A model generated the notes under the pieces. It saw only the letters and a program-made list of their open reading frames with translations. It had not been told where the DNA came from and ran no database searches. A stretch of DNA of 20,185 nucleotides from a virus: IMG/VR virus record IMGVR_UViG_3300035698_005499, positions 1-20,185 of that record. One strand, written 5' to 3'. Made by a program: the position numbers and the translations under genes. Shown in pieces: positions 14,256-20,185 of this stretch; position 1 is the first letter of the stretch, and each line of letters begins with the position of its first letter.

Positions 14256-15575
14256 ATGGCAACCAAGCACCTCATCGGCAAAGCCGTCGACGTCAAGCAA
14301 GTCACGACAGTACAAGTTTCAGGCTTCGACGCGACGACCACCTACATCATCACCATCAACGGCATCGTCGTGTCAGTCGTCGGCGACACCGATGCCGACA
14401 CCACCGCCGCCAACTTGCGCACCGCGCTCGAGGCTTCGACTCACGTCTATTTCTCGTCGATCGACTGGACAGTCGCCACCGACACCATCACCGCGACCGG
14501 CGGCGTCGCCGGCATTCCCTTCACCTTTACGCCGTCAGTCACCGGCGGCGCCGGCACGATTGGCTCGGCGACGACGACGACGGCGGCAACGGGCGCCAAC
14601 CATTTCGACGACGGCGACAACTGGAGCGACGGCAGCGCACCAGGAGCGAGCGACACCGTGCTCTTGCGTGACGTCACCGAGCCGATGCTCTTTGGATTGG
14701 ACAACAACAGCATCACGCTCACCAACTTAGAGATCGACTTGAGCGCACTAGGCGACGTCGGCTTGCACGTCGACCAGTTCCAAACCAGCGAGACCGGCGC
14801 CGACATCACCGCCAACGAATACCGCGAAGACTATCTCAAGATCAGCGCGACCGATGCCCGCATCGGCGGCCACGAGGGCAGCGGCGCCCCCGTCGGCGCT
14901 CAACGTCTCAAGCTCGACACCGGCGCCAACGCTTGCGCCATGGTCATCGAAGCGACCAATGCGACGCCGACCGACGGCAACCTCAACAGCGTGCGCGTGC
15001 TCTTCAATCACGCGAGCAGCACGCTCGAGGTGCGCTCGGGCAGCGTCGCCGTCGCCGCCGATCAGCCTGGCGAGACGTCGACGCTATCGAGCATCACCCT
15101 CATCGACGGCATCTTGCGCGTCGGCGCCGGCGTCACGCTCACCAATCTCTACCAGGCCGGCGGCGTCGCAACACTTGGCGCGGCCGCGACCTTGATCGAC
15201 CAGGCCGGCGGCACGCTCACCGTGCACGGCGCCGGCGCCGTCACGACCTTGCGAGCGATCGCATCGGCCGTTTGTAATTATCAAAGCACCGGCAACATCA
15301 CCACGGCAACCATCGGCAAAGAGGCGACGCTCAACCTCGACAGCGGCATCACCATCGCCACGCTCAACGCCGCCGGCAAGGTCGACTTGTCGGGCGGGCA
15401 CGCCGGCGACGCCGTCACCGTCACGACGTTCAAAGTGCAAAGCGAAGACTTTGAGCTCGACGACAGCAACAGCCGGCTCGTCGACGACACGACGCTCGTG
15501 CCGTCGGCCGGCGTCAACCTCGCCGAGTGCTCGATCAATTGGGGAACGGGCGAGAAAATGAAAAAGGTCGCGTAG
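14256..15575 (+). CDS. Tail fibre or receptor-binding protein, beta-helix type
   Basis: The 439-residue product is almost wholly beta, rich in Thr, Gly, Ala and Asn. Residues about 20-100 form an immunoglobulin-like or fibre-shaft domain (TYIITINGIVVSVVGDTDAD, a run ending IPFTFTPSVTGGAGT). Then comes TAATGANHFDDGDNWSDG, followed by repeated short strand-turn units such as LILRVGAGVT-like segments (DGILRVGAGVTLTNLYQAGG, LGAAATLIDQAGGTLTVHG) that suggest a right-handed beta-helix. Such proteins decorate the tail tip and bind host surface polysaccharide. A diverged partial copy of residues 107-172 exists at 17431-17583. It is preceded by the usual AGGAGC leader and followed by a hairpin at 15575-15612. 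Confidence 0.7.
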   Translation: MATKHLIGKAVDVKQVTTVQVSGFDATTTYIITINGIVVSVVGDTDADTTAANLRTALEASTHVYFSSIDWTVATDTITATGGVAGIPFTFTPSVTGGAGTIGSATTTTAATGANHFDDGDNWSDGSAPGASDTVLLRDVTEPMLFGLDNNSITLTNLEIDLSALGDVGLHVDQFQTSETGADITANEYREDYLKISATDARIGGHEGSGAPVGAQRLKLDTGANACAMVIEATNATPTDGNLNSVRVLFNHASSTLEVRSGSVAVAADQPGETSTLSSITLIDGILRVGAGVTLTNLYQAGGVATLGAAATLIDQAGGTLTVHGAGAVTTLRAIASAVCNYQSTGNITTATIGKEATLNLDSGITIATLNAAGKVDLSGGHAGDAVTVTTFKVQSEDFELDDSNSRLVDDTTLVPSAGVNLAECSINWGTGEKMKKVA

Positions 15576-17286: not shown

Positions 17287-17492
17287 ACATCAACGACCCC
17301 GCGCGGCGAAGCGGCCGCACGCAAAAGCTCATCGACGACATCATCACGCACGCGCTCGCCGTGCCAGGCGATCACATCTTGCTCGTCGTTCATGATCACG
17401 CGGCCGCGCGTGAGATCGGCCGCCGACTCTACGACGACGGCGGCAACGGGCGCCAATCACTTCGACACCGCCCGCTACCGCGACATCAATGA
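17283..17492 (+). pseudogene. Truncated P-loop-like protein, 3' end replaced by a fibre fragment
   Basis: The start has AGGAGC at 17271-17276. The first ~52 residues look like the opening of a small phage NTPase: ARRSGRTQKLIDDIITHALA with a degenerate P-loop (GRT), then a strand-helix unit (HILLVVHDHAAAREIGRRLY). From 17431 the DNA matches the fibre gene instead (26 identical bases with 14574-14599), and this frame then yields a short nonsense-like tail (GGNGRQSLRHRPLPRHQ) and a stop at 17492. It is therefore best read as a recombination-broken gene. No Walker B region remains in frame. Confidence 0.55.
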
Positions 17493-17637
17493 GCCGATTC
17501 TCTTTGGCCTCGACAACAACAGCGTCACGCTCACGCGCCTCGAGATCGACTTGAGCTCGCTCGGCGACATCGGCTTGCACGCGGCCGACGCCGAGCAATG
17601 TGTCGCCGCCGTGCTTTCTCGCATCATCAACACATGA
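17392..17637 (+). pseudogene. Fragment of a tail fibre gene, fused out of frame
   Basis: In the +1 frame relative to the P-loop-like gene, this stretch encodes STTTAATGANHFDTARYRD followed by EPILFGLDNNSVTLTRLEID and SSLGDIGLHA, clearly related to fibre residues 107-172. Over 105 ungapped bases (17479-17583 against 14667-14771) I count 85 matches, and 27 of 35 residues agree. The fibre's intervening DGDNWSDGSAPGASDTVLL segment is mostly missing. The last 18 residues (ADAEQCVAAVLSRIINT) do not match the fibre. The level of divergence, with many silent changes, suggests it came from a different fibre allele. The in-frame ATG at 17392 has no Shine-Dalgarno. Confidence 0.6.
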
Positions 17638-17987: not shown

Positions 17988-18214
17988 GCGGCAACTACCT
18001 CACCGGCAAGACGTGCGCGTGCTCGCTTTGCGCCAAGCCCATCGTCGGGCACAAGACGTGCAAGCCGTGCATGAACAAGACACCCGACGCCGACGTCATC
18101 AGCGCGAGCATGGACGTCGCCGGCGACGAGCGCTTGCTCGACCTCAAGCTCGCCAACTTTCTCAGCCATCAAAGCCGGCTCGCCGGCACCTTTGACCAGG
18201 AGCGACGAGCATGA
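17984..18214 (+). CDS. Small zinc-finger protein (76 aa)
   Basis: Cys13-x2-Cys16 and Cys26-x2-Cys29 (CSLCAKPIVGHKTCKPC), with Cys11 nearby, form a compact zinc-ribbon candidate at the N-terminus. The rest is an acidic helix-rich tail (DERLLDLKLANFLSHQSRLA). DNA or protein binding is plausible but unproven. Both ends are ATGA-coupled, and it sits two genes before the replication initiator. Confidence 0.6.
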   Translation: MSGNYLTGKTCACSLCAKPIVGHKTCKPCMNKTPDADVISASMDVAGDERLLDLKLANFLSHQSRLAGTFDQERRA

Positions 18215-18441
18215 GCAAACCAACGCAACCTAAAAAGGGCATGATGATACGCGACCCCTGGCAAGGTGAAACGCACATGGTGCTCGGCAGCGCTCGCGTC
18301 GTGCTCGGCCTCGACATCGTCGACACTTGGGCAATCATGAACACCGAAGAGCCGGCGGCCAAGCCTCGCGTCGTAGAAACAAAATGGATTCAGCTATGCG
18401 AGCAAGTCGGCAAGGCCGCGTCGACGCGAGGCCAGTCATGA
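18211..18441 (+). CDS. Unknown small protein (76 aa)
   Basis: AGGAGC at 18198-18203, inside the previous gene, sets the start. The product has a basic N-terminus (SKPTQPKKGMMIRDPWQGET), a beta-like middle (HMVLGSARVVLGLDIVDTWA) and a charged C-terminus (VVETKWIQLCEQVGKAA). No family is recognised. It overlaps the initiator gene by ATGA, so the two are probably translated together. Confidence 0.58.
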   Translation: MSKPTQPKKGMMIRDPWQGETHMVLGSARVVLGLDIVDTWAIMNTEEPAAKPRVVETKWIQLCEQVGKAASTRGQS

Positions 18442-19457
18442 CCGAGGGCGACCGATCACAGCAACCGAGCGAGGCCGCGTCTTGGTTCGACGTCTTTGAC
18501 GAGGTGCGCACGCTCGTCTTGTCGAAGACATGGGCGAGGCTCACGCCATCGGCGCGAGCGACATACATGGTCATCTATGTGCACGCAAGCCGCTCGCGCC
18601 GGGAATGTTGGGCGAGCAATGGCACGCTCGCCAAGCTCGCCGGCATGAGCGTCTCGTCGGTCAAGCGAGGGCTCGACTCGCTCATCTCGGCCGGCGTCGT
18701 CGCACGATACGACGGCCAGGTCAAAGGCCGAGACATGCGCATTTTGCGCCTCACCGAGCCGCCCGGCGTGCGGCCGCAACGTCTTCGCCTGGCGAGCGAC
18801 GACCCGGCTCAAGGCCCGAACCGCACCCGGTTCACCAGTGAGCCAGGCCGGCCCACCAGTGAGCCAGGCCGGCCCACCAGTGAGCCGGCACCCGGTTCAC
18901 CAGTGAGCACCGAACAGAAGAGACAGAACAATAACGACGTCGGCGCAAAGCCCGAGCACCTCTTCACCGCCGAGGAACATGGCGCCGCCGCCCGCGAGCT
19001 AAGGGCTCGCGGCTTCGAGGAACGTGACAGCCGCGCGCTCGTCGCCAAGTTTGGCGCCAAGATCATCACGCAACAGATCGCCAACACCGACTACAAGCAC
19101 CAGGCCGGCGAGATCACCAAGAGCTATCGCGGCTTTTTCGTCCGAGCTTGTGCCGACAATTACCCGCTCGACCCCCGCATCACTCGAGATCACGCCACAG
19201 CGGCCGCCACGTCCGCGAGGATGGCAGCAAAAGCCGAGGCCGATGAGGTCGTCGCTCAAGATTCGAGACGCTTACAAGCGACTCAGGCGGCTTGGGCGGC
19301 TTTGTCCGAGGCCGAGCAAGAGCGTCGGATCGAGAAAGAGATCGACAAGATGCCAGAAGAGGCGCTCAAATGCGGGCGCCTCGTCACGAGATTGACAGCC
19401 AAAGCGGCCGCGCGTGCGGCACTTATTGACAACCCCAAACCAGGAGCAACGACATGA
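18438..19457 (+). CDS. Replication initiator candidate with winged helix and internal origin
   Basis: The 339-residue product has a winged helix-turn-helix at about residues 32-92 (WARLTPSARATYMVIYVHAS, WASNGTLAKLAGMSVSSVKR, GLDSLISAGVVAR), typical of phage and plasmid replication proteins. A linker of repeats follows (about 129-159, FTSEPGRPTSEPGRPTSEP), encoded by four DNA iterons, then a helical C-terminal region. This order (DNA-binding domain, origin-encoded linker, C-terminal domain) is that of lambda O, which binds the iterons in its own gene and recruits the helicase loader. The upstream in-frame start at 18327 is rejected because the ATGA overlap at 18438 fits the local pattern. The end, NPKPGATT, is encoded by the leader of the following gene. 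It could instead be a transcription regulator of similar fold. Confidence 0.7.
   Translation: MTEGDRSQQPSEAASWFDVFDEVRTLVLSKTWARLTPSARATYMVIYVHASRSRRECWASNGTLAKLAGMSVSSVKRGLDSLISAGVVARYDGQVKGRDMRILRLTEPPGVRPQRLRLASDDPAQGPNRTRFTSEPGRPTSEPGRPTSEPAPGSPVSTEQKRQNNNDVGAKPEHLFTAEEHGAAARELRARGFEERDSRALVAKFGAKIITQQIANTDYKHQAGEITKSYRGFFVRACADNYPLDPRITRDHATAAATSARMAAKAEADEVVAQDSRRLQATQAAWAALSEAEQERRIEKEIDKMPEEALKCGRLVTRLTAKAAARAALIDNPKPGATT
18823..18908 (+). repeat. Four iterons, probable phage replication origin
   Basis: The core CACCAGTGAGC occurs four times, at 18833, 18854, 18875 and 18898 (spacing 21, 21 and 23). The outer units (18823-18843 and 18888-18908) are identical 21-mers beginning GCACCCGGTT; the inner units (18844-18864 and 18865-18885) are identical 21-mers beginning CAGGCCGGCC. 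A purine-rich, AT-richer stretch (18910-18935) follows directly, as the A/T-rich unwinding region follows the four iterons in lambda ori. All lie inside the initiator gene. The spacing of 21 bp is two helical turns, so bound proteins would line up on one face. Confidence 0.75.
18909..18936 (+). other. Candidate DNA unwinding region beside the iterons
   Basis: A strongly A-rich, purine-biased run (ACAGAAGAGACAGAACAAT and neighbours) stands out in this GC-rich window and lies immediately 3' of the fourth iteron, as expected for an origin melting site. It is short and less AT-rich than lambda's. Confidence 0.45.
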
Positions 19458-20185
19458 CCATCGAAAAGATTATCGACAGCGACGGCGGCCGCGAGGTGCC
19501 TAGTGAGATCATCACCGACATGCCCGTCGATCTCGACGACATCGCCCGCCCGGCGGCGGCCGGCGCCGTGCTCAAACTCGACCACCGTCACGAGATCACC
19601 GTCGACGGCGTGCGCGTCGCCGTCAACCGCGACGGCAAGCTCAACGTCGGCGACATCGTCGCCATCAGGCACGACGACGGCGGCGGCTTGAAATACCGAC
19701 TCGGCCAGGCCGTCAACTTGTGGCCGGATTCTTTCGACGTCGAGATCAAAAGCGGCCGAGCCGATAGCCTCAATTGGCACGGCGCCATCATGCGGCGCTA
19801 TTTCATCAATCGCGGCGAGCTCAACAAGCTCGGCGCATGGCACGCGCTCACGCCAGTCACCGACACCATCGCCGGCATCGAGCACATGCCCGGCGACACC
19901 ATTGCCGAAGCGATCGAGCACGCGGCCTTTGAGTCGGCGCCCCGGCTCAGCACGCACCAGTCGACGACGAGCATCGACGCCGCGCTCACTCGCGCCCGCG
20001 CTTACCACCGGCAATCGCTTGACCTGGCCGGCATCAAGCAGACCGACCTCGACATCAGAGTCGTGCAAGCGATGTGCGAGCCCGTCAACGCCGTAGACCT
20101 CAGCGTCGATGAGCTCACGCACGAGCTCAGCCTATGGCGACACTTGCGAGCGATGGCCGAGACACTCGACCCCGAGAAAGCGGCG
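19454..20185 (+). CDS. Unknown protein, cut by the window edge
   Basis: Translation from the ATG at 19454 (AGGAGC at 19442-19447, ATGA overlap with the initiator stop) is open for all 244 codons to the end of the window, so the gene is partial. The N-terminus is acidic (SDGGREVPSEIITDMPVDLD), followed by a beta region (LDHRHEITVDGVRVAVNRDG, LNVGDIVAIRHDDGGG), a segment with WPDSFDVEIKSGRADSLNWH and RRYFINRGELNKLGAWHAL, and a helical C-terminal part. The place after the initiator suggests a replication or accessory role, but no family is recognised. Confidence 0.65.
   Translation, partial: MTIEKIIDSDGGREVPSEIITDMPVDLDDIARPAAAGAVLKLDHRHEITVDGVRVAVNRDGKLNVGDIVAIRHDDGGGLKYRLGQAVNLWPDSFDVEIKSGRADSLNWHGAIMRRYFINRGELNKLGAWHALTPVTDTIAGIEHMPGDTIAEAIEHAAFESAPRLSTHQSTTSIDAALTRARAYHRQSLDLAGIKQTDLDIRVVQAMCEPVNAVDLSVDELTHELSLWRHLRAMAETLDPEKAA

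Follow-up and report, generated by a model that had tools for sequence, protein, structure and literature searches.

Four iterons and an adjoining A-rich tract inside a winged-helix initiator gene: a candidate phage replication origin with counterparts in distant phages

The window, meaning the whole stretch of DNA analysed here, is an incomplete viral fragment of 20,185 bp (record IMGVR_UViG_3300035698_005499). Structural genes, among them those for a lambda-family portal and an S49 protease, lie upstream of a plus-strand gene for a replication-initiator candidate of 339 amino acids (18438..19457), whose ATG overlaps the stop codon of the ORF at 18211-18441. The next ORF runs from 19454 to the point where the window stops, at 20185, and gave no convincing family match. 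Helicase, loader and primase genes were looked for, and none was recognised within the incomplete 20,185-bp fragment. Neither viral contigs nor plasmids yielded a close relative of the initiator or of a structural protein encoded nearby, and conservation was therefore assessed on distant relatives alone; for an alignment-based scan, no stretch proved sufficiently conserved.

The gene product had been called an initiator candidate in the initial annotation, and profile searches bear this out. HTH_36 (PF13730) matched with an E-value of 5.2e-11 and a score of 42.6 bits, above the cut-off of 25, making the protein a member of that family. PHROG 270, annotated as replication initiation, matched residues 31-172 with an E-value of 4.5e-13. 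This alignment spans positions 37-170 of the 383 in the PHROG 270 profile and leaves the C-terminal part, beyond about 170, unmatched; that part is not defining for HTH_36, and C-termini differ within the group. The initial annotation had also seen no obvious similarity to lambda O. This held at the level of the Pfam O domain (Phage_rep_O, PF04492), where the initiator scored 14.5 bits (E 0.051), under the gathering score of 28.7, but not at greater remove, where weaker matches to "O-like" profiles appeared (PHROG 391, E 1e-7; PHROG 678, E 1e-6). The initiator therefore resembles lambda O but is not classed in the Pfam O family.

A winged-helix domain (residues ~30-118; 18525..18791, plus strand) holds the HTH_36 match at residues 34-86, and is recovered both in an AlphaFold model and in matches to solved structures. 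The model, built from an 11-sequence alignment, has wHTH secondary structure and a pLDDT of 83-96 across residues 31-90. The top matches in the PDB were generic winged-helix regulators of the MarR, CRP and ArsR types. Inside the domain, the recognition helix S-V-S-S-V-K-R-G-L is encoded at 18648-18674 on the plus strand. The model then passes into a disordered linker that takes in the iteron-coded residues, and from there into a C-terminal helical region (residues ~178-331; 18969..19454, plus strand), which is modelled partly at low confidence. The C-terminal half had no family match in Pfam or PHROG profile searches; judging from the model, its helical region is a candidate contact for a helicase or loader.

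Four exact copies of CACCAGTGAGC are present in the gene, at 18833-18843, 18854-18864, 18875-18885 and 18898-18908, all on the plus strand, and the word is absent elsewhere in the 20,185-bp record. They belong to four plus-strand iterons of 21 bp. Iteron 1 (18823..18843) and iteron 4 (18888..18908) are identical and of an outer type, GCACCCGGTTCACCAGTGAGC; iteron 2 (18844..18864) and iteron 3 (18865..18885) are exact repeats of an inner type, CAGGCCGGCCCACCAGTGAGC. The dyad TCAC-CA-GTGA is perfect in the outer iterons, while the inner ones have extended arms and a single dyad mismatch, at position 4 of the arm (CCAC...GTGA). The array falls between the winged helix and the C-terminal part, in the predicted disordered linker. 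The number of copies, the pairing of outer and inner units and the placement between the two protein parts were all as first described. The spacing, given there as two helical turns, fits the first two steps of 21 bp; the last step, of 23 bp from iteron 3 to iteron 4, is 2 bp longer. With it comes a change of reading frame, a point absent from the initial annotation: iterons 1-3 share one frame and read TSEP (in full TSEPGRP), and iteron 4 is shifted and reads GSPVS instead. When the gene was shuffled 5000 times with dinucleotides preserved, one shuffle contained some 11-mer four times, in whatever arrangement.

An A-rich stretch was said to come directly after the repeats, and the segment 18912..18941 (plus strand) is indeed the least stable 30-mer of the gene. 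It is 57% AT, vs 36% across the gene, stands at the 99.4th percentile of the window for instability, is A-rich on its coding strand and contains two GAAC words. We regard it as a candidate DNA-unwinding element. A switch in GC skew, which had been proposed as a further sign of an origin, was not found in the 20-kb fragment; skew is mostly negative and merely flattens at 18-19.5 kb.

We searched for distant relatives at the DNA level, scanning viral contigs for pairs of CACCnGTGAnC words separated by 8-14 nt. This gave 53 loci, in 18 of which the pair lies inside a winged-helix initiator ORF, representing about ten distinct families. Domain identity among these families is mostly 12-41%, with one pair at 57%, and the window's initiator is 20-32% identical to them in the DNA-binding domain. 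One member (L045) has the 16-nt GGGTCACCAGTGAGCC four times, at steps of 24, 24 and 23, with copy 4 in a different frame. Another (L015) has GGGTCAC(CA or TG)GTGACCC four times at the same steps, and its palindrome is kept while a central change turns Ser into Gly. A final step of 23 bp together with a frame change is common to L045, L015, L017, L024, L028 and L025. Relatives had been expected to show free silent variation if the repeat mattered only as Ser-Glu-Pro units; none was found, and L045 and L015 keep the DNA. The order of identical outer and identical inner units at 18823-18908 recurs in the distant L015 (ORF nt 440-528), not in L045. In Pseudanabaena phage Pam5 (L060), GGGGTCAGAATGTGACCCC iterons occur at 742-1345, where no gene is annotated and a translated initiator match covers the region.

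A scan of genome contigs for TCACCnGTGAnC pairs returned 60 matches, one only of them in an HTH initiator (L122/L173); the TCACCnGTGAnC pattern is thus a useful guide in viral contigs but not in whole genomes. As a control, the viral scan was run with the motif reversed, and 10 of its 35 matches, plus L033, again fell inside HTH initiators. This control is not neutral, because one half of a palindromic iteron will also match the reversed core AGTGNCCAC. It therefore gives no measure of how specific the 18/53 count is, and enrichment was judged instead by surveys blind to iterons.

For the exploratory survey, initiators came either from genomes, where PHROG 270 was used to find them, or from named phages, where protein similarity was used, and an ORF was scored as iteron-bearing if some 11-mer, with up to one mismatch, occurred three or more times inside 200 bp. 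In-gene repeats were found in 29 of 36 domain ORFs, vs 25 of 164 other ORFs at the same loci (Fisher 7e-14). A separate validation set, from Bacillota and Alphaproteobacteria genomes, gave 16 of 21 initiators vs 23 of 133 other ORFs (Fisher 1.5e-7). The rate for neighbouring ORFs was thus 15-17% over both surveys, while the in-gene iteron plan occurs in ~80% of the winged-helix initiators sampled blind, which came from genomes of Pseudomonadota, Actinomycetota, Planctomycetota and Bacillota and from named phages. Iteron copies occupied more than one frame in most arrays (22/29 exploratory, 13/16 validation). The first iteron began 5-104 bp past the HTH domain in 26 of the 29 exploratory arrays. 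Exploratory steps cluster at 21-24 bp, and the last step is the most regular, at 21-25 bp in 25 of 29 arrays vs 28 of 63 for the other steps (Fisher 2e-4).

The 45 nt past the last iteron were AT-richer than the gene in 25 of 26 exploratory and 14 of 15 validation initiators, and in the exploratory set they are A-rich on the coding strand. GAAC words in the 60 nt past the iterons numbered 45 in the exploratory set, vs a shuffle maximum of 22. This enrichment was weak in the validation set, with 10 words vs a shuffle mean of 4.5 and maximum of 12, and we treat it as a lead only. At a number of loci (L190, L192, L164, L176, L194, L066, L202 and others) the A-rich tracts contain short direct repeats that include GAACC or GAACA, fall in several frames and are often spaced by 11-12 nt. 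Three Bacillota loci (L292, L300, L301) have AAGAATACCCA repeats in place of the GAAC type.

Eight of the ten DNA-scan families share a Lys-Arg pair at two matching positions in the recognition helix, vs 1 of 36 iteron-blind initiators, although the Fisher value of 1.5e-6 overstates independence in that the DNA-scan families may share descent. The sole Lys-Arg initiator of the iteron-blind set (L173) has three copies of TCACnnGTGA. In a profile match, the Arg of this pair aligns with the Arg of Vfr; in CRP-type proteins, the equivalent Arg serves to read a GTGA half-site. There are exceptions in both directions. Several Lys-Arg winged-helix proteins are without a TCACnnGTGA site, mostly lack iterons altogether and are probably regulators; Gingerbug and DelaGarza combine Lys-Arg with GGTCAG..CTGACC-like sites; and the TCACnnGTGA site accompanies Arg-Arg in L251 and Thr-Arg in L033. 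Lys-Arg is therefore associated with TCACnnGTGA, and is neither sufficient nor necessary for it.

We interpret 18438-19457 as the replication initiator gene of the phage and 18823-18941 as its origin, with a probability of roughly 0.85. The candidate origin is thereby narrowed to about 120 bp. The winged helix would bind each iteron, probably as a dimer given the dyad symmetry of the core TCAC-CA-GTGA, and four occupied iterons would build a nucleoprotein core. Strain from this core would open the A-rich tract at 18912-18941 beside iteron 4, after which the C-terminal part would bring in a helicase or loader. Placed among the codons of a flexible linker, the origin would sit where coding constraint is weak, and initiator and origin would travel as one module.

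One alternative is that the repeat is kept for the protein, as a Thr-Ser-Glu-Pro-Gly linker produced by tandem duplication. Such a linker would agree with iterons 1-3 being in frame as TSEPGRP in a region predicted to be flexible, but iteron 4 lies out of that frame, which argues for selection at the DNA level. Four copies of any linker 11-mer survived in none of 20,000 synonymous recodings, and AGT, which makes up 4.5% of the Ser codons in the window's genes, is nonetheless present in all three TSEP units. In relatives the palindrome is read in two frames and survives amino-acid substitutions. Nor do the steps in 45 iteron-bearing initiators keep to multiples of three, those of 20-26 bp dividing 23:15:15 over the three mod-3 classes in the exploratory set and 7:12:10 in the validation set. 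We judge a repeat kept for the protein very improbable, and rejected it on the recoding test and the relatives' palindromes in two frames. A neutral tandem repeat was also rejected, in view of the frame change, the recoding test and the palindromes kept by relatives. Seen in the window, the pattern suggests either selection on the DNA or a very recent duplication, and the distant relatives argue for selection.

It is also unlikely that the repeats are operators, by which a winged-helix protein would mainly regulate its own gene or operon while replication starts elsewhere. HTH_36 and the structural matches (MarR, CRP and ArsR types) are regulator folds as well, and an initiator bound to its own gene might autoregulate in addition. 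Against a mainly regulatory role, the sites are ~390 bp inside the coding sequence and not at a promoter, the family annotation is replication initiation, and the DNA immediately past the repeats is AT-richer, in the window's gene as in 39 of the 41 other iteron-bearing initiators tested. Iteron arrays can serve partition in phage-plasmids (B83 phage, PMC6669507), and this one could by extension be a centromere-like partition array or an incompatibility array, bound by the initiator or by another protein. We hold this to be extremely unlikely: the window proteins tested included no recognisable partition protein, the array sits within an initiator gene and adjoins an unstable tract, and its recurrence in other phages is tied to initiator genes.

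By analogy, the origin candidate joins the known in-gene origins of lambda O, SPP1 gp38 and P1 RepL. Lambda has dyad-symmetric iterons about two turns apart and an initiator, O, of winged-helix type. Its four iterons lie within the initiator gene and are followed by an AT-rich tract (PMC7466680); the two iterons beside that tract suffice in vitro, according to work cited in the same paper, and the constrained last step of our exploratory survey fits this result as it is cited there. The window's gene likewise has four in-gene iterons and then an AT-rich tract. The lambda-type plan first proposed, of a winged-helix initiator gene with in-gene iterons and an adjoining unstable A-rich tract, was largely right on the points to which the fragment can speak. 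It differs from lambda in its iteron sequence, in scoring below the Phage_rep_O cut-off, and in that no P-like loader was recognised beside the initiator in the 20,185-bp fragment. In SPP1, gp38 binds to direct repeats located in its own gene, 38, next to an AT-rich unwinding element (PMC6316719). The likeness to gp38/oriL is one of layout, namely repeats in the initiator gene and an adjoining AT-rich element; SPP1 has a second, distant origin, oriR, and none was seen in the window's fragment. P1 has its lytic oriL inside the RepL initiator gene, where synonymous changes in an A/T-rich part impair replication, as given in the cited sections of PMC9948254. The location within the initiator gene is shared, and the difference is that those sections describe no such iterons for RepL.

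PHROG 270/HTH_36-type initiators, among them L045, L015, L024 and those of Burkholderia phage Bcep176, Corynebacterium phage phi16 and Gordonia phage Chickadee, have in common with the window a winged helix, in-gene iterons 21-24 bp apart, an A-rich tract and a variable C-terminus. Most have other iteron sequences, TCACnnGTGA occurring in a subset only. We found no description in the open-access literature of in-gene iterons as a rule for this group. We put at about even odds the broader proposal that in-gene iterons are the default for HTH_36-type phage initiators across bacterial phyla, with a readable link between helix and iteron (Lys-Arg and the GTGA half-site), together with a last step confined to 22-24 bp beside an A-rich tract that often has short GAAC-type repeats. 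If that were so, the origins of thousands of uncultured phages could be located by sequence alone. A frequency of ~80% implies that sequence alone could place origins in such phages and pair initiators with their binding sites, and helix-to-site specificity would become testable through swaps between natural initiators. The wide spread of the plan and the possible helix-to-iteron link are the points of interest here.

Two further repeats were noted in the window. Six near-identical gene-start leaders, (A)AACCAGGAGCAACRMCATGA, each with an ATG, occur at 78, 9430, 13961, 16833, 17269 and 19440. The pattern resembles duplication of a ribosome-binding site with its start, and several of the leaders double as code for the C-terminal PGATT of the upstream protein. 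Separately, 17431-17581, within a short ORF (17392-17637), repeats part of a gene of the structural region (14574-14769), with 119 nt at 81% and 36 nt at 94% identity.
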